From assembly GCF_013285155.1 (NCBI RefSeq), contig NZ_JABTEL010000001.1:310001-374000 (forward strand): DNA of 64,000 bases, written 5' to 3'. Shown here piece after piece: positions 12,492 through 53,532 of the stretch (the first letter of the stretch is position 1; every line of letters begins with the position of its first letter). The stretch comes from Winogradskyella undariae. Lineage in GTDB: Bacteria; Bacteroidota; Bacteroidia; Flavobacteriales; Flavobacteriaceae. The notes below the pieces were generated by a model. It worked only from the letters and a program-made list of their open reading frames with translations. It made no database searches and was not told where the DNA came from. The position numbers were made by a program, and so were the translations under genes.

Positions 12492-13787
12492 TTAATGCTG
12501 AAGCGCTTTTTGTTTTACAACTGCAAAAGCTTCTTTTAAATCATTTTTCAAATCTTCTATATTTTCAATTCCTACAGATAAACGAATTAAGTCTTTGGTA
12601 ACTCCAGAGGTTAATTGCGCTTCATCGCTTAGTTGCTGATGTGTTGTGCTTGCAGGATGAATGATAAGAGATTTTGTGTCTCCAATATTTGCTAATAATG
12701 AGAACAACTTTGTAGTGTCAGAGATTGTTTTAGCAGCTTCGTAACCTCCATCAACGCCAAAAGTAACAACGCCACTCTGACCTTTTGGTAAGTATTTGTC
12801 TGCTAATTTTTTGTATTTACTAGTTTCTAAACCAGGGTAGTTTACCCAATTGACTTCCGGCTGTTCTTGTAGCCATTTTGCTAATTCTAAAGCATTTTCA
12901 CTATGTTTTTTAATACGTAATTCTAAAGTTTCTAAACCTTGAATGATTTGAAAAGCATTAAATGGACTTAAAGCACCACCATAATCCCGTAAGCCTTCAA
13001 CTCTAATTTTTGCAATAAAAGCAGCTGCTCCAATAGCTTCGCTATAAACTAAACCATGGTAACCAGCAGATGGTTCTGTGAATTCTGGGAATTTCCCATT
13101 AGTCCAATCAAAATTGCCACTATCAATTATAATACCTCCTAATGAAGTTCCATTTCCGGTGATGTATTTTGTTAAAGAGTGAATAACAATGTCTGCCCCG
13201 TACTCAATTGGTCTAAGTAAGTAAGGTGTTGCTACAGTATTATCTACGATTAATGGAACCTTAAAAGCTTTTGCTTCTTTAGAAATAGCTTCTAAGTCTA
13301 AAACATCTAATTTTGGGTTTCCTAAGGATTCTACAAAAAAGGCTCTTGTGTTTTCTTGAGTTGCTTTTTTGAATGAGTCAGGATCAGAAGGATCTACAAA
13401 AGTGGTTGTAATACCATGTCTAGGTAGTGTAACGCTTAATAAATTGTAGGTTCCTCCATATAAGCTACTCGATGCTACGATGTGATCGCCAGCTCTTAGT
13501 AATGTTAGTAATGTTGTAGAAATGGCTGAGGTTCCAGAAGCTGTTGCTACTGCGCCTATTCCGCCTTCTAAAGCTGCTAAACGCTGCTCTAAAATGTCGT
13601 TGGTTGGGTTGTTTAAACGGGTGTAAATGTAACCAGGAACCGAAAGGTTAAATCTTCCTGCTGCTTCATCTGAATCTTTAAAGACGTAAGATGATGTTTG
13701 GTAAATAGGAACAGCTCTTGTCCCTGATGTTTGACTTGCGTCGTGTCCTGCGTGCAACGCTTTGGTTGCGAATTTTTGTGTACTCAT
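12492..13787 (-). CDS. metY: O-acetylhomoserine sulfhydrylase (PLP enzyme)
   Basis: A 431-residue Cys/Met-metabolism PLP enzyme. The cofactor lysine is K207 in VIHSLTKYITGNG; the phosphate-binding ATASGTSAIS (81-90), the YTRLNNPT segment (55-62) and VDNTVATPY (181-189) are typical of MetY. The length (about 430) and the TSAI/SLTKY context separate it from the shorter MetB/MetC enzymes. It joins sulfide to O-acetylhomoserine to form homocysteine directly. It is first in the metY-osmC-metX unit and follows a SAM-I riboswitch, so methionine and SAM supply should repress it. Confidence 0.93.
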   Translation of the reverse strand: MSTQKFATKALHAGHDASQTSGTRAVPIYQTSSYVFKDSDEAAGRFNLSVPGYIYTRLNNPTNDILEQRLAALEGGIGAVATASGTSAISTTLLTLLRAGDHIVASSSLYGGTYNLLSVTLPRHGITTTFVDPSDPDSFKKATQENTRAFFVESLGNPKLDVLDLEAISKEAKAFKVPLIVDNTVATPYLLRPIEYGADIVIHSLTKYITGNGTSLGGIIIDSGNFDWTNGKFPEFTEPSAGYHGLVYSEAIGAAAFIAKIRVEGLRDYGGALSPFNAFQIIQGLETLELRIKKHSENALELAKWLQEQPEVNWVNYPGLETSKYKKLADKYLPKGQSGVVTFGVDGGYEAAKTISDTTKLFSLLANIGDTKSLIIHPASTTHQQLSDEAQLTSGVTKDLIRLSVGIENIEDLKNDLKEAFAVVKQKALQH

Positions 13788-13932: not shown

Positions 13933-14056
13933 GAGTTATCTATCCAATTTTCCGATTAATGAATCGGATTATTAAGTAGAATTTAGCACCTTCTTAGTGA
14001 ATCTAAGGGTTGCTAAGGCTTCATAGGGTCATTCCCTCCGCCTTTCTTGATAACAT
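13933..14056 (-). ncRNA. SAM-I (S-box) riboswitch upstream of metY
   Basis: Read on the minus strand the conserved S-box blocks appear in order: TTATCAAGAAAGG, then CGGAGGGAATGACCC, then TATGAAGCCTTAGCAACC, then AAGGTGCTAAAT, then GATAGATAACTC. P1 closes as GTTATC with GATAAC, six perfect pairs. The variable P4 arm is AT-rich (CCGATTCATTAATCGG). The aptamer ends about 145 nt before the metY start. Binding of S-adenosylmethionine should lower metY-osmC-metX expression. Confidence 0.92.
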
Positions 14057-15709: not shown

Positions 15710-15855
15710 TTGAGAATAGATTTATCTGTCTGTTAATCAGTTAATTGAAATATATTTTAACGACTGGGCATCGTAAAGTTAAACTAAGATCGGTATTTTA
15801 AAGCAAAATCAAAATATATATTCGTAAGACAATACTATAAAATATATTTTGATAA

Positions 15856-17031
15856 ATGTCTAATAACCGTATTCAAATATTCGATACTACACTGCGAGAT
15901 GGAGAACAAGTGCCAGGTTGCAAGCTTAACTCAGAACAAAAAGTAATCATTGCAAAGCAATTAGATCTTTTGGGAGTTGATGTGATTGAAGCTGGATTTC
16001 CAGTGTCTAGTCCAGGAGACTTTAAGTCTGTAGAAGCAATTTCAAAAATTGTAAAAAATGCAACAGTTTGTGGTTTAACACGTGCTGTTGAAAATGATAT
16101 AAAAGTTGCTGCTGAGTCTTTAAAATATGCTAAATTACCGAGAATACATACAGGTATAGGTACGTCAGACTCTCATATTATTCATAAATTTAAATCAAAC
16201 AAAGAAGCTATTATTGAGCGTGCTTTTCAAGCTGTAAAATATGCGAAGTCTTTTGTTGAAGATGTAGAGTTTTATGCTGAAGATGCAGGAAGAACTGATA
16301 ATGAATATTTAGCAAGAGTATGTGAAGCTGCAATTAAAGCAGGTGCTACTGTGTTAAATATTCCAGATACAACTGGGTATTGTTTACCAAGTGAGTATGG
16401 AGCAAAAATAAAATACCTTAAAGAAAATGTAAAAGGTATTGAGGAGGCTATATTGTCTTGTCACTGTCATAACGATTTGGGTTTAGCTACAGCAAATTCT
16501 ATTGAGGGTGTGATTAATGGAGCACGACAGATAGAATGTACTATCAATGGTATTGGTGAGCGTGCTGGTAATACAGCATTGGAGGAAGTTGTTATGGTAT
16601 TGAAGCAACACCCTTATCTTAATTTAGATACTAATATTAATACGTCAATGTTGTATGGAATGAGTCAACTTGTTAGTGATAATATGGGGATTTATACGCA
16701 GCCAAATAAAGCGATTGTAGGTGCTAATGCTTTTGCTCACAGTTCTGGTATTCATCAAGATGGTGTGATAAAAAACAGAGAAACTTACGAAATTATTAAC
16801 CCAGCAGATGTTGGTGTTACTGAGTCTGCAATTGTTTTAACAGCAAGAAGTGGAAGAGCAGCTTTGGCATACAGAGCTAAAAATGTAGGTTACGAATTAA
16901 CAAAACTTCAGTTAGATGATGTATATTCTAATTTTTTAAGTTTTGCAGATCGTAAAAAAGAAATCAACGATAATGATATTCATCAAATTATAGAAACAAG
17001 TAGTGTCTATAAACAAATAATTTCAGCTTAA
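15856..17031 (+). CDS. leuA: 2-isopropylmalate synthase, short form without regulatory domain
   Basis: A 391-residue DRE-TIM metallolyase. The catalytic block DTTLRDGEQ is at 10-18, and the metal ligands H203 and H205 with N206 are in [10 protein letters not shown]. It condenses acetyl-CoA with 2-ketoisovalerate, the first step of leucine synthesis. Classical LeuA is about 510-520 residues with a C-terminal leucine-binding dimer domain. This protein stops after the accessory helical subdomain ([16 protein letters not shown], then about 70 residues) and has no regulatory domain. Its place before leuCDB makes isopropylmalate synthase more likely than homocitrate or citramalate synthase. It is the first gene of the operon, with leuC 4 bp later. 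Confidence 0.93.
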
Positions 17032-43273: not shown

Positions 43274-44545
43274 CTATACTAAGAATTGAAATAAATCTTG
43301 CTTATCATTTAAGTAGTCTCCGAAGAAATTATGAAGTTTCATTTTAGAGATTAAAGGTTCTAGGTCTGATGGTGATTTTAGTTGCAATCCTACAATGGCA
43401 ACATCATTTTCTCTATTGGCTTTCTTGGTGTATTCAAAATGTGTAATATCATCAGTTGGGCCTAATATATCTACTACAAAATCTCTTAAAGCTCCTGCAC
43501 GTTGCGGGAATTTTATAATAAAGTAATGTTTAAGATTGGCATAAACTAAAGCGCGTTCTTTTATTTCTGCCATTCTTGTAATATCGTTGTTACTTCCGCT
43601 AATAACACAAACAACATTTTTACCTTTTATTTCGTCTGCATATTGATCTAAAGCCGAAATGCTTAAAGCTCCAGCAGGTTCAACAACGATAGCGTCTTTG
43701 TTATAAAGGTCTAAAATAGTTTGGCATATTTTGCCTTCGTCTACCGTAATGACATTAGATAAGTTTTCTTTACAAATTGCAAAGTTTAAGTCACCTACAC
43801 GTTTTACAGCAGCTCCATCTACAAAACTTTCTATGGTTTCTAACGTTGTGTTTTTATTGTTTTTTATTGAAGTAAGCATCGATGGCGCACCTTTAGGTTC
43901 TACACCAATAATTTTTGTTTGTGGTGATAGAATTTTAAAAACAGACGATAATCCTGAAGATAATCCGCCACCTCCAATTGGTACAAATACATAATGTATA
44001 GGGTGCACTTTGGCTTGGTCTATAATTTCTAAACCTACCGTTGCTTGACCTTCAATAACTTTTTCGTCATTAAAAGGATGGATAAATGTTTTGTTTGAAC
44101 GTTGGCATTCTTCCATGGCGGCATGACTTGCGTCATCAAAAGTGTCACCAACTAAAACCACGGTGACGTAATCTTCACCAAACATTTTTACCTGCTCAAT
44201 TTTTTGATTAGGTGTTGGTGAAGGCATAAAAATAGTACCTTTTATTTTTAATAATTTACATGAAATAGCAACACCTTGCGCATGGTTTCCTGCACTTGCA
44301 CATACAATTTCGTTTTCAGTTTGAATAGGGCTTAAAGATGAAATTTTATTATAAGCTCCACGGATTTTATAAGAGCGAACTTCTTGTAAATCTTCTCTTT
44401 TAAAATACACATTAGCATCAAACAGTTTTGAGTACTGCGCATTTTTTATTAATGGTGTAACGTGAGCAATGCCTCTAAGTCTTTCGGCTGCAGCTTCAAC
44501 AGCTTTAAGTGTAGGCTTGTATATGTTTGTTGTGGTTTCTTCCAT
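43274..44545 (-). CDS. ilvA: Threonine ammonia-lyase (biosynthetic, short form)
   Basis: A 423-residue fold-II PLP enzyme. The cofactor lysine is K60 in VRSYKIRGAY; the Gly-rich phosphate loop is PIGGGGLSSGL. The last 90 residues (HYFIIKFPQRAGALRDFVVDILGP) form one ACT-like domain, so isoleucine feedback is expected. Length matches the Bacillus-type enzyme with a single regulatory domain rather than the 514-residue E. coli form. It turns threonine into 2-oxobutyrate, the entry to isoleucine synthesis. It follows ilvC by 81 bp; the gap has two small palindromic repeats. Confidence 0.94.
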   Translation of the reverse strand: MEETTTNIYKPTLKAVEAAAERLRGIAHVTPLIKNAQYSKLFDANVYFKREDLQEVRSYKIRGAYNKISSLSPIQTENEIVCASAGNHAQGVAISCKLLKIKGTIFMPSPTPNQKIEQVKMFGEDYVTVVLVGDTFDDASHAAMEECQRSNKTFIHPFNDEKVIEGQATVGLEIIDQAKVHPIHYVFVPIGGGGLSSGLSSVFKILSPQTKIIGVEPKGAPSMLTSIKNNKNTTLETIESFVDGAAVKRVGDLNFAICKENLSNVITVDEGKICQTILDLYNKDAIVVEPAGALSISALDQYADEIKGKNVVCVISGSNNDITRMAEIKERALVYANLKHYFIIKFPQRAGALRDFVVDILGPTDDITHFEYTKKANRENDVAIVGLQLKSPSDLEPLISKMKLHNFFGDYLNDKQDLFQFLV

Positions 44546-44626: not shown

Positions 44627-46132
44627 TTAAGCTAAGACAGATTCTTCAGCTTTTACATCTTCAGTTTTTATAACTTTCATTGCCGTCATAGCAGCACGTA
44701 AACGTTGACCAACAGATTCTATAGGGTGATTTCTAATAGCATCGTTAACCGCAATTAATTCTTTATTATCAACACCTGTTGTTTTAGAGAATGATTTTCC
44801 GATGATAGAAGTATCTACCGTTTTCATGAAATCGGTTAATAATGGTTTACATGCGTGATCGAATAAATAACAACCATATTCTGCTGTATCAGAAATGACA
44901 CGGTTCATTTCAAATAATTTCTTTCTAGCAATAGTGTTAGCTATTAATGGTAATTCATGTAAAGATTCATAATAAGCAGAATCTTCAATAATACCTGCGC
45001 TTACCATAGTTTCAAATGCGAGTTCAACACCAGATTTCACAAATGCAATTAATAATACACCATGATCAAAATATTCTTGTTCTGTAATAGGATCAGAAGT
45101 TAATGCTGTTTTTTCAAAAGCAGTTTCACCAGTTTGCGCTCTCCAAGTTAATAGATTTACATCATCATTTTCCCAATCTTCCATCATAGTTTTAGAAAAA
45201 TGACCAGAGATAATATCATCCATATGTTTTTCAAATAATGGACGCATAATACCTTTTAATTCTTCAGATAATTGAAAAGCTTTTATTTTAGCAGGATTAG
45301 AAAGTCTATCCATCATGTTGGTGATTCCACCATGTTTTAAAGCTTCTGTGATAGTTTCCCATCCATATTGAATTAATTTAGCAGCATAACCTGGTTCAAT
45401 GCCTTCTTCAACCATTTTATCAAAAGATAAAATAGCTCCTGTTTGTAATAAACCACAAAGTATGGTTTGTTCTCCCATTAAATCAGATTTTACTTCCGCA
45501 ATAAAAGACGATTGTAAAACACCAGCTTTATCTCCACCTGTAGCAGCAGCATAAGCTTTGGCTTGCGCCCAACCTTTTCCTTCTGGATCATTTTCTGGAT
45601 GTACCGCAATTAAAGTAGGTACACCAAAACCACGTTTATATTCTTCTCTTACTTCTGTACCAGGGCATTTTGGTGCCACCATAATTACAGTAATATCTTC
45701 ACGAACAACAGTACCTTCTTCTACAATATTAAAACCATGAGAATAACTTAAAGTTGCCCCTTTCTTCATAAGAGGCATAATTGCTTTTACAACATTGGTG
45801 TGTTGCTTGTCTGGTGTTAAGTTTAACACTAAATCAGCAGTAGGAATTAACTCATCATAAGTCCCAACAGTAAACCCGTTAGAAGTTGCATTTTTATAAG
45901 ATTCACGTTTTTGGTCAATAGCAACCTGACGTAAAGTGTATGAGATATCTAACCCAGAGTCTCTCATGTTTAAACCTTGGTTAAGACCTTGCGCTCCACA
46001 TCCCACAATAACGATTTTCTTTCCTTTTAATGCGTTTACACCATCTTCAAATTCTGAAGCATCCATAAAACGACATTTTCCTAATTGATCTAATTGATTT
46101 CTTAATGCTAATGTGTTGAAATAATTTGACAT
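44627..46132 (-). CDS. ilvC: Ketol-acid reductoisomerase, class II
   Basis: A 501-residue long-form enzyme, close in length to the E. coli class II protein, with the knotted C-terminal domain duplicated. The Rossmann site is [13 protein letters not shown]. The cofactor-specificity loop [12 protein letters not shown] keeps the Arg, Arg and Ser that mark NADPH use, with Gln where E. coli has Lys. It isomerises and reduces acetolactate and acetohydroxybutyrate. It lies 69 bp after ilvN. Confidence 0.96.
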
Positions 46133-46201: not shown

Positions 46202-46732
46202 TTAATCTTGAAATGCTTCAAGTAATGTTGATATTTTCATTTTATCTTTGGTTACCGCAACACGACCAGAGCGTGTAAATTGCATAATGCCAAAGACATT
46301 TAATTCTCTATATAATAAATCTATTTCTTCTTTTCTGCCTGATTTTTCTAACACGAAGAATTCTTTGTTTACCGTTACAATTCTGGCATTGCTTTCTCTG
46401 ATTATATTTTGAATTTGACGTTCATCGAATAATAATTCAGATTTAATTTTGAATAAACAAGACTCTTGGTAAATGATTTCATCTTCGGTGTGATAGTAAG
46501 CTTTTATAACTTCGACTTGTTTTTCTATCTGCCCTTGAATTTTTTTCATTTGAGCCTCTGTAATATTTACAACAATTGTGAATCTAGAAACTCCTTCAAT
46601 TTCTGAAGGTGATGTGTTAAGACTCTCAATATTCATATGTCTTCTTTGGAATATTGCTGAAATCCTATTCAACAATCCTATATTGTTTTCCGTATAAATA
46701 GAAACGGTAAATTGTCTGTTTTCGTTTTCCAT
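46202..46732 (-). CDS. ilvN: Acetolactate synthase small (regulatory) subunit
   Basis: A 176-residue ACT-domain protein. The N-terminal ACT domain (FTVSIYTENNIGLLNRISAIF, about 8-28, through residue 80) should bind valine or another branched-chain amino acid. A C-terminal domain (SELLFDERQIQNIIRE to the end) activates the large subunit. The two-domain length matches the IlvH/IlvN type. It starts 2 bp after ilvB ends, so the subunits are made in step. Confidence 0.94.
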   Translation of the reverse strand: MENENRQFTVSIYTENNIGLLNRISAIFQRRHMNIESLNTSPSEIEGVSRFTIVVNITEAQMKKIQGQIEKQVEVIKAYYHTEDEIIYQESCLFKIKSELLFDERQIQNIIRESNARIVTVNKEFFVLEKSGRKEEIDLLYRELNVFGIMQFTRSGRVAVTKDKMKISTLLEAFQD

Positions 46733-46734
46733 AA

Positions 46735-48468
46735 TTACTCTAATCTTATATCTGAAACACTTGCACCTGTAGGTATCATAGGAAATACATTACCTTCCTT
46801 TTCTACTCTAACTTCCAAGAAATATGGACCTTCACAATCGATCATTTCTTTTACAGCTGCTTTTAAATCTTTTCTTTCGGTTACTTTTTGAGCTTCAATA
46901 TGATAACCTTTTGCAATCGCTACAAAATCGGGATTTGTCATTTCTGTTGACGCATAACGTTTATCGAAAAATAGTTGTTGCCATTGCCTTACCATCCCAA
47001 GGAACTCGTTATTTAAAACCACAATTTTTACGGGTACTTTTTGTTGAAAAATAGTACCTAATTCTTGAATCGTCATTTGATAACCTCCATCTCCTGCAAT
47101 CATTACAACTTCTCTGTTTGGTGCAGCCATTTTAGCTCCAATAGCAGCAGGTAATGCAAAACCCATAGTTCCTAAGCCTCCAGAGGTAATATTACTTTTT
47201 GATTTATTGAATTCAGCATAACGACATGCAATCATTTGATGTTGGCCAACATCACTAACAATAGCAGCATCACCTTTGGTTTGTATGTTGATTTCTTTCA
47301 ACACTTCTGCCATTGTTATCCCTTCTTTTGTGGGATGTAAATCATTTTTAATAACTTTTTCGTACTCTATTTTGTATAAATCTTTGAATTTTTGATGCCA
47401 TTCTTTATGTGAATTCGGGTTTAATAAAGGCAATAAGTTTTTTAAGCTTGCTTTAGAATCTCCAAGAACCGCGACATCTGTTTTTACATTTTTATCAATT
47501 TCAGCAGGATCAATATCGAAGTGAATCACCTTAGCTTGTTTTGCATATGAAGCTAAATTTCCTGTAACACGATCGTCAAAACGCATACCAATAGCAATTA
47601 AAACATCGCATTGGTTGGTTAAAACATTTGGTGCATAATTACCATGCATACCAACCATTCCTACATTTAAAGGGTGTGAAGTTGGTATTGCAGAAGCTCC
47701 TAAAATAGTCCAAGCAGAAGGAATTCCTGCTTTTTCAATAACGGCTTTAAATTCTTCTTCTGCTTTACCTAAAATAACACCTTGTCCCCAAACGATTAAA
47801 GGTTGTTTTGCGTTATTAATGAGTTCTGCTGCTGCTTTAAGAGAATTTTCATCCGTATCAGGTACAGGTTTGTAACTTCTTACACCTTTACACTTTTTGT
47901 ATTCAAAATCAAATTCTTCAAATTGAGCATCTTTAGTGATGTCTACTAATACAGGTCCTGGTCTACCGCTTTTTGCGATATAAAATGCTTTTGCTAACAT
48001 TTCAGGAATCTGTGAAGCTTTAGTGATTTGACAATTCCATTTTGTTACTGGTGTAGAAATACCTACGATATCAGTTTCCTGAAAGGCATCACTTCCTAAT
48101 AAATGAGATCCCACCTGGCCCGTAATACAAACCATTGGTGTAGAGTCTATTTGTGCATCTGCAATCCCGGTAACAAGATTGGTAGCACCAGGACCTGAAG
48201 TCGCGATACAAACACCAACTTTACCGGAAATACGAGCGTAACCTTGTGCAGAATGCGTTGCTCCTTGTTCGTGGCGTGTTAAAACATGATGAATTTTATC
48301 TTGATACTTGTATAATTCATCATAAACAGGCATAATTGCACCACCTGGATATCCGTAAAGTATGTCGACACCTTCAGCTAATAAACATTTTATTATAGCT
48401 TCACTACCAGAAATACGTTCTGTAGTTGATGTCTTTTTTGGGTTGTTTTGTTCTGTTTTTACTTCCAT
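46735..48468 (-). CDS. ilvB: Acetolactate synthase large subunit
   Basis: A 577-residue thiamine-diphosphate enzyme. The activating Glu is E67 in VLTRHEQGATH; the cofactor motif runs from AGDGGYQMTIQEL to VVLNNEFLGMVRQWQ. The quinone/FAD middle domain is present. It condenses pyruvate with pyruvate or 2-oxobutyrate, the first shared step of valine, leucine and isoleucine synthesis. It follows ilvD by 73 bp and precedes ilvN. Confidence 0.95.
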   Translation of the reverse strand: MEVKTEQNNPKKTSTTERISGSEAIIKCLLAEGVDILYGYPGGAIMPVYDELYKYQDKIHHVLTRHEQGATHSAQGYARISGKVGVCIATSGPGATNLVTGIADAQIDSTPMVCITGQVGSHLLGSDAFQETDIVGISTPVTKWNCQITKASQIPEMLAKAFYIAKSGRPGPVLVDITKDAQFEEFDFEYKKCKGVRSYKPVPDTDENSLKAAAELINNAKQPLIVWGQGVILGKAEEEFKAVIEKAGIPSAWTILGASAIPTSHPLNVGMVGMHGNYAPNVLTNQCDVLIAIGMRFDDRVTGNLASYAKQAKVIHFDIDPAEIDKNVKTDVAVLGDSKASLKNLLPLLNPNSHKEWHQKFKDLYKIEYEKVIKNDLHPTKEGITMAEVLKEINIQTKGDAAIVSDVGQHQMIACRYAEFNKSKSNITSGGLGTMGFALPAAIGAKMAAPNREVVMIAGDGGYQMTIQELGTIFQQKVPVKIVVLNNEFLGMVRQWQQLFFDKRYASTEMTNPDFVAIAKGYHIEAQKVTERKDLKAAVKEMIDCEGPYFLEVRVEKEGNVFPMIPTGASVSDIRLE

Positions 48469-48541: not shown

Positions 48542-50221
48542 TTAAAATTCATCCGTTACACATCCTTTAGATGCGGATGATACTGTTTTTGCATATTTAT
48601 ATAAAACACCACGTTCAAACTTTAATTCTGGTGCTTTCCATTTTTGACGTCTTTTTTGAAGTTCTACTTCAGAGACTTCAAGTGATATAGAATTTGTTTC
48701 AGCATCAATAGTAATAATATCTCCGTCTTTTACAACGGCAATAGTTCCTCCTTCTTGTGCTTCAGGTGTAATGTGTCCTACAACAAAACCATGTGTTCCT
48801 CCAGAGAATCTTCCGTCGGTAATTAAAGCCACATCTTTTCCTAAACCAGCTCCCATAATAGCAGCTGTAGGCTTTAACATTTCTGGCATACCTGGTCCGC
48901 CTTTTGGTCCTTCGTATCTAATGACAATAACATCGCCTTTTTCAACTTTACCATCTCTAATACCATCATTTGCTGCATATTCTCCTTCAAAAACTTTAGC
49001 TTTTCCTCTAAAGCATAAGCCTTCTTTTCCTGTGATTTTTGCAACACTTCCTTCTGTAGCTAAATTTCCGTAAAGCATTCTTAAATGTCCTGAAATTTTA
49101 ATAGGTTTTTCAATAGGGTGTATAACATCTTGACCTTCTTTTAAGTCAGGAACATCTAATAAATTCTCTGCAATTGTTTTTCCTGTAACAGTTAAACAAT
49201 CACCATGAATTAATCCTTTTTTAAGTAAATATTTTAATACTGCAGGTATTCCGCCAACAGCATGTATGTCTTCCATTAAATATTTTCCACTTGGTTTTAA
49301 GTCGGCCAAAAATGGTGTATTGTCACTAATATCTTGAAAATCTTTTAAGGTGAAATCAATTTGAGCAGCTCTTGCAATGGCTAAAAAGTGTAATACAGCA
49401 TTGGTAGAACCACCTAATATTGTAACGAGTCTTACTGCGTTTTCTAAAGATTTTCTAGTAATTATATCAGACGGTTTAATATCTTTTTCTAATAATAAAC
49501 GTAGGGCTTCACCAGCTCTTACAGATTCTTCTTTTTTAGCATCACTTAATGCTGGGTTAGAAGAGTTAAAAGGCAAAGTCATTCCTAAGGCTTCAATTGC
49601 AGAAGCCATTGTGTTTGCAGTGTACATTCCGCCGCAAGCACCAGCACCTGGACAAGCTTTTTCAACAATATTTTGATATTCTGTTTCGTCCATGGTTCCG
49701 GCAACTTTACTTCCCCATGCTTCAAAAGCAGAAACGACATCTAGTTTTTTACCATTATGGCAACCTGAATCAATCGTTCCTCCATAAACCAAAATACTTG
49801 GTCGGTCTAAACGAATCATTGCCATTAATGCACCTGGCATATTTTTATCACATCCTACTACGGTAATTAATCCGTCATAACTCATAGCTTGCACTACAGT
49901 TTCCATAGAATCTGCAATAATATCTCTAGAAGGTAATGAGTAACGCATTCCTGGTGTTCCCATAGAAATACCGTCACTAACACCAATGGTGTTGAATATT
50001 AATCCTACAACATCTTCGTTCTTCGTTCCTTCTTTTACATGTTTTGCTAAATCGTTTAGATGCATATTACAAGGGTTACCTTCGTAACCTGTACTAGCGA
50101 TTCCAACGATTGGTTTGAGGAAATCTTCTTTTGTTAATCCAATAGCGTGCAACATAGCTTGAGCAGCCGGTTGTGTTGCGTCTTGAGTAACTGTTTTACT
50201 GTATTTATTTAATTCGCTCAT
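48542..50221 (-). CDS. ilvD: Dihydroxy-acid dehydratase
   Basis: A 559-residue IlvD/Edd-family iron-sulfur enzyme. Cluster and Mg-site residues are in [29 protein letters not shown] and SDGRFSGG-type [17 protein letters not shown]. It dehydrates dihydroxy acids to 2-keto acids in the third step of the pathway. It is the first gene of the ilv operon and is preceded on the same strand by a leader peptide and attenuator-like terminator. Confidence 0.96.
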
Positions 50222-50396: not shown

Positions 50397-50430
50397 ATAA
50401 AAAAAGCCTTCCGTTTAAAAGGAAGGCTTT
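50397..50430 (-). terminator. Attenuator terminator of the ilv operon
   Basis: On the minus strand AAAGCCTTCC-TTTTAAAC-GGAAGGCTTT forms a 10-bp stem followed by seven T, 26 nt after the leader-peptide stop codon and about 180 bp before ilvD. The top of its first arm (TTCCTT, 50419-50424) is complementary to AAGGAA at the end of the leader frame (50464-50469), which would break the stem. Confidence 0.85.
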
Positions 50431-50455
50431 AAAATAAATATATGTTTTATTTTGA

Positions 50456-50530
50456 TTATAGCATTCCTTGGCTTTGAGAAATAATCTCAATGCGAATAAT
50501 AGAAATGATATTAATGACTTGTTTTTTCAT
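50456..50530 (-). CDS. Ile-rich leader peptide of the ilv operon
   Basis: A 24-residue frame from ATG at 50530 to TAA at 50456-50458. Ile is at 6, 8, 9, 11, 12, 14, 16 and 17, Val at 5 and Leu at 24. In the RNA the Ile codons hold a hairpin (GCATT pairing with AATGC around TTGAGA/TCTCAA, 50461-50493). Stalling at Ile codons would open it and free AAGGAA to pair with the terminator arm downstream. All parts of a classical translation-coupled attenuator are here. The frame is too short for routine gene finding. Confidence 0.82.
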   Translation of the reverse strand: MKKQVINIISIIRIEIISQSQGML

Positions 50531-50539
50531 AAGTGTTGT

Positions 50540-50547
50540 CAAATATT
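50540..50547 (-). promoter_or_regulatory. Possible -7 box for the ilv leader
   Basis: Minus-strand AATATTTG differs from TAnnTTTG at one position and is identical to the box before the SAM riboswitch. It would start the RNA only a few bases before the leader-peptide ATG, so the leader could be translated from a nearly leaderless message. Confidence 0.4.
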
Positions 50548-50739: not shown

Positions 50740-53532
50740 ATGAATAAGCTATCTTTTTTTTTTATTTTCTTTTTTTTATTCTCTACGCACTGTTATAGTC
50801 AATTTACACCAAGCATACATAATTATACTTTAGCAGAGTATAAGGCTGGTAATCAAAATTGGGATATTACTAGGGCAAATGACGGTAAGGTGTATGTTGC
50901 TAATAATAGTGGCTTGTTGGAGTATGATGGTCTAGTATGGAAATTTCATCAATTACCTAATAAAACAATTGTGCGGTCTGTATTGTCGGTAAATAATATT
51001 GTTTATACTGGCTCTTATGAGGAATTTGGTTACTGGAAGCGTAATGAGTTTGGATTTCTAAAATACTATTCTTTAAGTGATACTATACTTGATATTATTT
51101 CTCCTAATGAAGAAATATGGGAAATAGTGAATTTTGATGATAAGATTATCTTTAGATCTTTCTCTAATATATATGTTTACGATTTTGAGACAGTCAGGCA
51201 ATTGCACACAAATTCAGTTATTATATCGTGTAATGTTATAAATGATAATTTGTATATCAGTACATTAAATGAAGGTGTGTTTTTGTTGAAAGATAAAGAT
51301 TTAGAGCTTTTTTATTTTAATGAGCTATTAAAAGACACTAAGATTATTTCGGTTAGTAATTATGGAGGGAAACTTTTATTAATGACTTCACTTAAAGGAA
51401 GTTTCTTTTTAGATGAGCACAATTTAAAACCAACTAATTTTGAAATTAATGAACAAATAAAATTACATCAACTAAACCATTTTTCTGTTTTAAGCAATGG
51501 AGATATGGTATTTGGAACAATAAAAGACGGTGTTTTTTTAAGTGATAAGAGTGGAAATTTAAAATATCATATAAGTAAAGAAAATGGGTTACTCAATAAT
51601 ACTGTTTTAGCTCAATCTATAGATTCTACAGATAACCTTTGGTTAGGTTTAGATAATGGAATAGCGCATATACAGCTTAGTAGTAGTAATTATTTTTTTA
51701 ATGATGTTTCAGGTAAGTTAGGTGCTGTTTATGATATTGTGGAGTTTAAGGATACAATTTATATAGGGACTAATACAGGATTGTTTTTGTTAGACGAATT
51801 TGATAAATTACAATTTGTAGAAGGTTCTCAGGGGCAAGTTTGGGATTTAAAGATTATTGATGATGAACTTTTTTGTGGACATAATGAAGGTACTTTTTTA
51901 GTGAATAAAAAAACTATTAATTTTATTTCTAGATATACAGGTGGATACACCATAAGAAAAGTACCTGAAAAAGAAAATACTTATATACAAGGAACATACT
52001 CTGGCTTAGTTAAGTTTGAGAAAATAGATGGTAAATGGGAAGTTAAACATTTAGGAAAAACGACTATTCCTTCTAAGTCTCTAGTTTTCGAAAATGCTAA
52101 TACCGCTTGGGTTGCACATGCTACAAAAGGAATTTATAGAGTAATATTTGATAAAAATTATGATTCCGTAACTTCTATAATCGATTATCGTGAAAAAGGG
52201 ATACATTCAGATTATAATGTTAGGTTGTATAATATTAAAAATGCTATTTGTTTTAAGACGAATGAAGGATGGCAGAAATATGAACCTATTATAGATTCTA
52301 TTACGCCTTACAATCTGCTTAATGATAAATTAGGAAAGGGCAGTTATATCATTTCAGGAGTAAGTAAAGATCTGTTTGCTTTAAAAGATAAAAGTGGATA
52401 TATTAAATTTAAGTCCTTTTCTGATGATGAAGACAGGTTATTTTTAAACGATAGATCTTTAAAGAATAGATATATTATTGGTTACGAAAATATGTCTACA
52501 ATTAGAGATTCTGTTTATGCTTTGAGTTTAGATAATGGATTTATGATGATTAATAATACTTCTGCCAATACTACAAATTTATATCGGCCTAATATAGAGA
52601 GTATAGCTGTTAATGGAGTATCAATAAGTCTTTCTAATATTTATAAAGAAGGTGTGCGTTTTAATTTTAATGAGAATATTGCAATTGAATTAACGTCATC
52701 GAAATCTACAAATTATTTTTTAGAATATAATATTCCTGAAACGGATGATATATGGTATAAAATTGAAGGTAGTACAGTAGAGTTTTCAAATCTAATAGAT
52801 GGTGAATATACATTTGCTTTTAGAATAAATGATAATTCAGGTAAAGTCTCACCTGTTACAAGTATAAAAATAGATGTTCTTCCTCCTTGGTATAGAGATA
52901 CAATAGGTTTTGTGCTTTATAATCTTTTGGCAGCTATGATTGTTGTAATCTTCTATACGATGCATAATAGAAAAGTAGCTAAAGAGCAACATCTTATTAA
53001 AATTAAATATCAAAAGGAGCAGGAAAAATTATTAAGAGAGCAAACCTTAGAGAATGAGAAACAAATGGTTCAGCTTAAAAATGAATCGTTACAAAACGAA
53101 ATTAAACTTAAAAGCAAGCAATTAGCTAATAATGCAATGGCTTTAGTAAAAAAGAATGAGACATTACAAGATATTAAAAATGAACTACAAGTTAATAAAG
53201 ATGGTTTTAGTAATTATTATTCTTATAAAAAGTTAGTAAAGAAACTTGATAACTCAATTGTTTTAAAAGATGAATGGGAGGTTTTTGAAAATAACTTTAG
53301 TCAAGTTCATGATGAGTTTTTTGAAATACTAAAAGCAAAACATTCTAGTCTTAAACCAAAAGATTTAAAAATGTGTGCCTACATCAAAATGAATCTTTCG
53401 TCTAAAGAAATAGCTCCACTTATGAATATCTCGGTTAGAGGGGTCGAAACACATAGATATCGATTAAAAAAGAAGTTAGATTTAGAAAATGATATTTCTT
53501 TGGTGGATTATTTATTAAATATTAAAAATTAA
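50740..53532 (+). CDS. Membrane-tethered PUL regulator: beta-propeller sensor, Y_Y_Y domain, LuxR-type HTH
   Basis: A 930-residue one-component sensor. A signal peptide (FFFIFFFLFSTHCYSQ) leads into a periplasmic two-fold beta-propeller (about 22-620) with repeats such as NLWLGLDNGIAHI, then a Y_Y_Y domain (about 645-715). One membrane helix follows (about 725-748, FVLYNLLAAMIVVIFY), then a Lys/Glu-rich coiled coil (750-830) and a C-terminal LuxR/GerE-like helix-turn-helix (about 865-930; NLSSKEIAPLMNISVRGVETHRYRLKKKL). There is no histidine-kinase or receiver domain, so unlike hybrid two-component PUL regulators it must carry a glycan signal straight to DNA while in the membrane. It lies 248 bp before susC on the same strand. 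Confidence 0.88.
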   Translation: MNKLSFFFIFFFLFSTHCYSQFTPSIHNYTLAEYKAGNQNWDITRANDGKVYVANNSGLLEYDGLVWKFHQLPNKTIVRSVLSVNNIVYTGSYEEFGYWKRNEFGFLKYYSLSDTILDIISPNEEIWEIVNFDDKIIFRSFSNIYVYDFETVRQLHTNSVIISCNVINDNLYISTLNEGVFLLKDKDLELFYFNELLKDTKIISVSNYGGKLLLMTSLKGSFFLDEHNLKPTNFEINEQIKLHQLNHFSVLSNGDMVFGTIKDGVFLSDKSGNLKYHISKENGLLNNTVLAQSIDSTDNLWLGLDNGIAHIQLSSSNYFFNDVSGKLGAVYDIVEFKDTIYIGTNTGLFLLDEFDKLQFVEGSQGQVWDLKIIDDELFCGHNEGTFLVNKKTINFISRYTGGYTIRKVPEKENTYIQGTYSGLVKFEKIDGKWEVKHLGKTTIPSKSLVFENANTAWVAHATKGIYRVIFDKNYDSVTSIIDYREKGIHSDYNVRLYNIKNAICFKTNEGWQKYEPIIDSITPYNLLNDKLGKGSYIISGVSKDLFALKDKSGYIKFKSFSDDEDRLFLNDRSLKNRYIIGYENMSTIRDSVYALSLDNGFMMINNTSANTTNLYRPNIESIAVNGVSISLSNIYKEGVRFNFNENIAIELTSSKSTNYFLEYNIPETDDIWYKIEGSTVEFSNLIDGEYTFAFRINDNSGKVSPVTSIKIDVLPPWYRDTIGFVLYNLLAAMIVVIFYTMHNRKVAKEQHLIKIKYQKEQEKLLREQTLENEKQMVQLKNESLQNEIKLKSKQLANNAMALVKKNETLQDIKNELQVNKDGFSNYYSYKKLVKKLDNSIVLKDEWEVFENNFSQVHDEFFEILKAKHSSLKPKDLKMCAYIKMNLSSKEIAPLMNISVRGVETHRYRLKKKLDLENDISLVDYLLNIKN

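Follow-up and report, generated by a model that had tools for sequence, protein, structure and literature searches.

In enterobacteria, the ilvGMEDA and ilvBN operons are preceded by leader-peptide attenuators. The accessible part of PMC10272879 names both of them, describes ilv upstream open reading frames (uORFs) in Corynebacterium and other groups, and cites a title on leader peptide formation in C. glutamicum without a ribosome binding site. In 2010, according to the accessible part of PMC2965389, no leader peptide system was known beyond the Proteobacteria and the Actinobacteria except that paper's own Firmicutes case. As for the Bacteroidota, which initiate translation without a Shine-Dalgarno sequence and use an unusual sigma factor (PMC9723704, accessible text), the portion of PMC7366714 open to us describes long 5' UTRs in B. 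thetaiotaomicron carrying short ORFs reminiscent of leader peptides, and that of PMC9723704 (2021) reports, in F. psychrophilum, strong clues for leader-peptide attenuation before amino-acid operons and names pheA and hisG as genes with a conserved 5' element. The sequence-only reading with which this work began knew of no experimental example in Flavobacteriia; the suspicion of such attenuation in a Flavobacterium is older (PMC9723704, same text). The literature search, with most subscription papers lying outside it, recognised no ilv attenuator in Bacteroidota. A comparative attenuation study by Lopatovskaya in 2010 may already list Bacteroidota cases. The kind of mechanism is already known, and the ilv attenuator described here appears well supported by comparison of sequences.

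The DNA analysed (the window) spans 64 kb of a genome of 4.2 Mb that is assembled into 59 contigs. Its minus strand carries an operon with the gene order ilvD-ilvB-ilvN-ilvC-ilvA, confirmed by NCBIfam models that all score above cut-off: ilvD, the first gene, for dihydroxy-acid dehydratase (48542-50221, TIGR00110), ilvB and ilvN for the large and small subunits of acetolactate synthase (46735-48468, TIGR00118, and 46202-46732, TIGR00119), ilvC for ketol-acid reductoisomerase (44627-46132, TIGR00465 and NF003557) and ilvA for threonine ammonia-lyase, the Ile-specific step (43274-44545, TIGR02079). This ilvD shares 97% identity with that of Winogradskyella psychrotolerans (L003), and another locus of the same genus (L095) has a leader and a profile score identical to those of L003, so that the genus is most probably Winogradskyella. 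Elsewhere in the window, a SAM riboswitch (RF00162, 81 bits; 13933-14056, minus strand) stands ahead of an ORF at 12492-13787 on the same strand.

Upstream of ilvD, the minus-strand frame pointed out by the sequence-only reading is indeed an ORF of 24 residues, MKKQVINIISIIRIEIISQSQGML (50530-50456), with relatives at other loci, and its control region (50515-50480) has eight Ile codons in 12 (I-N-I-I-S-I-I-R-I-E-I-I). It is the sole ATG ORF of 13-45 codons with at least seven Ile in 12 within the 64-kb window, and its run of Ile codons corresponds to an end product of the operon downstream (ilvDBNC and ilvA), as expected of a short leader ORF. Between this leader and the first structural gene lies an intrinsic terminator (50430-50399, minus strand; -15.2 kcal/mol), the 3:4 stem of which (50430-50403) has 10 pairs, five of them GC, a loop of 8 and a T run that follows it to 50399. 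The 10-bp stem is as first described, but the gap separating it from the leader is 25 nt rather than 26 nt, and three of the seven T attributed to the run lie in the stem. Because the upstream neighbour of ilvD is divergent (50740-53532, plus strand, with a GerE, LuxR-family domain), the terminator serves no long upstream minus-strand gene, and no long minus-strand ORF that it could serve was found upstream.

Three minus-strand segments have the arrangement of competing helices. Segment 1, AUAUCAUUUCU (50511-50501), placed by alignment and fold, lies inside the Ile codons. Segment 2, AAGGAAUGCUAU (50469-50458), closes the leader ORF, its final base being the first of the stop codon (50458-50456), and has segment 1 or segment 3 as its predicted partner; a terminating ribosome would cover it. 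Segment 3, AGCCUUCCUU (50428-50419), spans the first arm of the terminator and the start of its loop, and is the predicted antiterminator partner of segment 2. An inner hairpin, TTGAGA-TTATT-TCTCAA (50490-50474), which covaries in relatives, lies over the last Ile codons. The 2:3 helix is mutually exclusive with 3:4, and the 1:2 helix, a protector, overlaps the control codons. The pairing of AAGGAA (50469-50464) with TTCCTT (50424-50419), proposed by the sequence-only reading, is found in the fold of the antiterminator piece 50500-50419 (-18.4 kcal/mol, z -4.6, none of 200 shuffles as good), and the 139-nt RNA that it had suggested folding reaches -28.9 kcal/mol with a z of -4.4. Its 1:2 partner fared less well: GCATT is present at 50493-50489 and could pair with AATGC, but the conserved, predicted 1:2 helix is instead AUAUCAUUUCU:AGGAAUGCUAU. 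Judged from the window's own sequence, apart from its relatives, the 1:2 duplex fails to reach significance (z -1.1, p 0.15), and the 2:3 duplex is marginal (p 0.05).

Relatives were compared over as much as 900 nt of sequence ahead of ilvD in 170 regions: the window, 80 loci from named records (the best 80 of 595 relatives, L041 and L072 being labelled with other phyla), 46 more from the same genus and 43 from the same family (chosen in order of falling identity, for the most part one to a genus, among the 202 genomes out of 249 that had a match). A unit was scored when an ORF of 10-45 aa, starting with ATG, GTG or TTG, had at least six I/L/V in 12 and a terminator -10 to 60 nt from its stop. 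Such units precede ilvD in 69 of the 170 regions (32 of those best 80 of 595 relatives, 15 of 47 in the genus and 22 of 43 in the family), a figure that includes cases judged false (L008, L025, L029, L059, L079, L118) and misses clear ones (L006, L085, L140). Shuffled sequences, ten sets per group, gave 0 or 1 of 80, 0 of 47 and 0 or 1 of 43, and the reverse strand 4, 2 and 2, respectively. With other residue groups under the same criterion, the 170 regions yielded four matches for KNE, three for FYW, two for STA and none for DEQ, RHK or PGC; with single residues, at least five in 12, they yielded 46 for Ile, eight for Val, four for Leu and 0-1 for F, K, N, S and T. The I/L/V criterion found nothing in 30 leuA regions. 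Among the matches are loci labelled Saprospiraceae (L032, L039, L077, L078), Segetibacter (L051) and Ignavibacteriae (L031). Restriction to ATG starts leaves 67 units in 61 loci, L025 and L059 still among them, with the terminator 16-39 nt past the leader stop. Leaders are 13-25 residues long, and their sequence drifts between genera while the I/V content, partly built into the criterion, stays; between close species, much of the peptide is retained. The comparison upstream of ilvD that the sequence-only reading had proposed has gone in its favour: further species and genera have the control codons, the terminator and the competing helices as well.

Conservation of the helices was scored on 33 of 36 leaders tried, three being dropped for want of a recognised terminator in range; these form a chosen class and not all 67 units, and the helices were picked by scanning the same alignment in which they were later scored. 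There, the terminator is paired in 93.6% of cells. The 1:2 helix taken together with the inner hairpin is paired in 87.1% of cells; both sides have changed in 10 of its 17 pairs, and none of 500 shuffles attains its covariation score; taken separately, 1:2 (AUAUCAUUUCU:AGGAAUGCUAU, 11 pairs) is paired in 85.6% of cells with six pairs changed on both sides, and the inner hairpin in 90.1% with four of six. The 2:3 helix is paired in 86.6% of cells, versus 41-72% when slid, and within this aligned class its covariation does not exceed that of shuffles, of which 116 in 500 attain its score. Its duplex energy, compared with shuffled segment 2, has a mean z of -2.3 in the class and of -2.1 over the 67 units, with p<=0.05 in 38 of the 67. 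Between lineages, segments 2 and 3 are replaced jointly, as AAGGAAUGCU/AGCCUUCCUU, GAUACAG/CUGUAUC, GAAGGGAUA/AAUCCCUUU and GAAUGG/CCAUUC; the support for 2:3 lies in these joint replacements and in the duplex energies. Of the 1:2, 2:3 and 3:4 stems and their expected covariation, the competing helices themselves and the covariation of 1:2 are borne out, but not covariation of 2:3 within the class.

The leader also seems to have its own promoter very close by. On the minus strand, a presumed promoter, P1, has its -7 box, AATATTTG (50547-50540), 9 nt before the leader ATG, matching five of the six fixed positions of TAnnTTTG, the consensus given in the accessible parts of PMC7366714 and PMC9723704. 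Boxes with at least 5/6 matches that end 5-13 nt before the ATG occur in 38 of the 67 leaders (6/6 in two), where 200 random-anchor controls average 7.6 and never exceed 15, and TTTG lies 32-38 nt before the ATG, roughly the position of a -33 element, in 19 of 67, versus 1-7 in 20 controls. If transcription starts a few bases after the box, this suggests a leader message almost without a 5' untranslated region, as the sequence-only reading had surmised from the single box; the position of the box in so many units lends support to its view. A near-leaderless leader would be unusual, since in F. psychrophilum the median 5' UTR is 24 and leaderless messages make up 5.5% (PMC9723704, accessible text).

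Comparable leaders stand before other amino-acid genes of the same genome. A His leader, MTLIQFHHHFHTSNQAR, precedes hisG (L185:1913-1966), a Trp leader, MKINTNHTWWWNFSNLRS, precedes trpE (L186:3143-3199) and a Phe/Tyr leader, MNISRAYYNWFYFFFS, precedes the prephenate dehydratase gene (L187:4335-4385), each with a terminator 27-41 nt past its stop codon; the trp leader has TTTG-N19-TATATTTG 8 nt ahead of its ATG. No leader with terminator was found before leuA or thrA in this genome. A Leu leader before leuA had been considered as a candidate and was dropped (0 of 30 leuA loci).

These features are very probably those of a classical ribosome-mediated transcription attenuator tuned to charged tRNA-Ile, a switch that probably turns the ilv genes on when isoleucine is short. 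RNA polymerase would start only a few bases ahead of the leader ATG, and a ribosome would load near the 5' end and translate the leader. With ample Ile-tRNA, the ribosome at the stop codon would cover segment 2, the 3:4 stem would form and transcription would end near 50399. With scarce Ile-tRNA, a ribosome stalled in the eight Ile codons would cover segment 1 and leave segment 2 to pair with segment 3 (AAGGAAUGCU:AGCCUUCCUU, one mismatch), which would block the terminator and let RNA polymerase read through, so that ilvDBNCA would be transcribed. An untranslated RNA would fold into 1:2 and 3:4, and terminate.

The unit is variable within the genus. An intact one precedes ilvD in 15 of 47 loci (the 15 found by the criterion, minus the doubtful L118, plus the missed L085), and a profile made with 14 loci, 13 of them from the genus, picks out 17 of the 47, including L086, which has lost its ATG, and L096, where only the terminator is left. 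Counting six operons in which ilvE comes first (L111, L225-L229), a unit stands before 21 of 47 genus ilv operons. In 11 further ilvE-first operons, a leader and terminator precede ilvE in seven by criterion; an eighth leader (L226) is seen by eye, the scripted ilvE start being too early and hiding it from the criterion, and none was found before ilvE in L223, L224 and L231. For nine of these 11, the identity of ilvE was checked by NCBIfam: seven score above the TIGR01122 cut-off and two, cut fragments, just below. In L111, the leader and terminator before ilvE are followed by a second Ile-rich ORF with a terminator-like repeat (by eye), and then by box 1, described below. Tandem Ile/Val units before one ilv operon occur in L111, L229 and L233 (ilvE) and in L015, L031, L033, L146, L152 and L153 (ilvD), and at several tandem loci the second unit has a CCTGTATC-type terminator arm. 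Some attenuators appear to be decaying: besides the leader without ATG of L086 and the lone terminator of L096, L128 has a leader with poor 2:3 pairing.

Between the terminator and ilvD lies a second conserved element, recognised in alignments and separate from the attenuator. On the minus strand it comprises box 1, TTGAACATCATAA (50379-50367), the stretches TTGATTAACAATAATTTAA (50348-50330) and TTGAATTTAG (50313-50304), and GTAATTTAG (50262-50254), where TAATTTAG, a 5/6 match to TAnnTTTG, may be the -7 box of a promoter P2; across loci the layout is TTGAACATCATA, then YTGAT..., TTGAATTTAG and TAATTTAG, at similar spacing. Box 1 is found in 38 of 47 genus ilvD loci, with or without an attenuator, eight of the nine loci that lack it having ilvE before ilvD, and in 21 of 43 loci of other genera, in some as TTGAATATGATA. 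Genome-wide, YTGRRCATCRTAA has four matches, as many as its backwards control pattern; two are in long ORFs and two are intergenic, one before ilvD and the other, CTGGGCATCGTAA (15764-15776, plus strand), upstream of leuA (15856-17031). The leuA form of the element is present in all of the 30 leuA loci that were fetched from among 40 full-length matches in the genus. Before ilvE, a strict box 1 occurs only in L111 and L232 (1 of the 11 further operons); inspection by eye shows diverged versions in L223, L224, L231 and L233 and no box 1 before ilvE in L225-L230, the attenuator there being close to ilvE. L117 has a leader and no box 1. In the element region, RNAalifold gave no consensus RNA structure on 63 sequences, and no Rfam family reached its gathering score. 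Two ideas about box 1 were discarded: a structured RNA, as RNAalifold found none in those 63 sequences and a CTAAAT:ATTTAG pairing is without covariation by eye, and a third tiny leader ORF (TTG AAC ATC ATA ...), which has exactly eight codons in 39 of 73 rows, but stops after four in 11 and after six in 10, with some CTG, GTG or ATG starts.

The pattern hints that the element, YTGAACATCRTAA, is DNA with a second, attenuation-independent promoter. The sequence-only reading had counted a transcription start downstream of 50397 against itself; judging from the conserved element, an additional start there may exist. One might go further and suppose that the attenuator works, but that much ilvD expression comes from P2 under a DNA-binding regulator common to leuA through YTGAACATCRTAA, attenuation being a species-specific extra layer. 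The presence of box 1 at ilvD loci without an attenuator, its leuA form in every leuA locus fetched, the place of the two intergenic YTGRRCATCRTAA matches (with the reservation about the control given above) and the lack of RNA structure in the element by RNAalifold would all fit, whereas the candidate -7 box is only a 5/6 match, strict box 1 stands before ilvE in L111 and L232 only, L117 has the leader without it, and only about half of the other-genus loci have it; we regard this alternative as possible, though doubtful. In a broader reading, which we would place only a little short of probable, branched-chain amino-acid synthesis in the Flavobacteriaceae has two separable layers of control: nearly leaderless attenuators, sometimes in tandem, before ilvD or ilvE, whichever leads, and variable between species; and the ilvD/leuA element, YTGAACATCRTAA with its flanking boxes, marking a second promoter controlled by a putative regulator. 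Its probability is lowered because most operons headed by ilvE lack the element there.

Explanations that dispense with attenuation fare much worse. An Ile-rich ORF might arise by chance in AT-rich DNA beside a terminator, and when the 518-base intergenic region is dinucleotide-shuffled 5000 times, 61 of the shuffles do contain an ATG ORF with at least six Ile in 12; only one, however, has at least eight, none combines at least six with a terminator, and the recurrence of the unit in 69 of 170 regions, together with the residue-group controls, refutes this explanation, the probability of which we take as negligible. That the ORF encodes a functional small protein, the terminator merely ending its gene, would agree with the peptide being largely kept in close species, but is highly unlikely given a length of 13-25 residues, a sequence that drifts between genera at constant I/V content, RNA pairing that covaries inside the ORF, and the location of the units before ilvD or ilvE (in a search confined to ilv regions). 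A T-box, a riboswitch or some other ligand- or tRNA-binding leader RNA, with the leader untranslated, could account for the strong folding (z -4.4). In the window, however, only the SAM riboswitch at 13933-14056 reaches an Rfam gathering score, the leader locus matches no known aptamer or T-box family, and the best matches at relaxed thresholds, Ref55 with 28.6 of 43 bits and Phe_leader with 27.8 of 55, fall far short of their cut-offs and owe their scores to the terminator hairpin. The composition of the ORF is, moreover, kept while its sequence drifts, and we consider such an RNA very improbable.

Ribosome-mediated attenuation at ilvD would have consequences beyond this operon. If the leader is nearly leaderless, a mechanism that needs prompt ribosome loading on a nascent leader would have to work in Bacteroidota on messages nearly devoid of a 5' untranslated region. 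Together, the leaders would offer conserved test cases for transcription-translation coupling in the phylum, and a route to further leader genes. The ilvD/leuA element, which may serve a branched-chain amino-acid regulon as operator or as second promoter, is a lead to a possible common regulator.

The locus resembles the enterobacterial ilvGMEDA and ilvBN attenuators in having a branched-chain-rich leader ORF, an intrinsic terminator, competing helices and an ilv operon downstream; it differs from them in control codons that, in the window, are almost only Ile, and in a Bacteroidota -7 box a few bases from the ATG. With the Corynebacterium ilvB-II motif and ilvBNC uORF, as described in the accessible part of PMC10272879, it would share attenuation by an ilv uORF outside the Proteobacteria, but phylum, first gene and sequence are other. 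The ilvB-OMG and ilvB motifs of the same text likewise place ahead of ilv genes a uORF in which branched-chain codons abound, whereas the window locus is below every Rfam gathering score. With the attenuation suspected in F. psychrophilum (PMC9723704), it has in common the bacterial family and a position before amino-acid biosynthesis operons, and would share the kind of mechanism; as far as the accessible text of that paper goes, "ilv" is absent from the main text and section 19 is without leader sequences or pairings.
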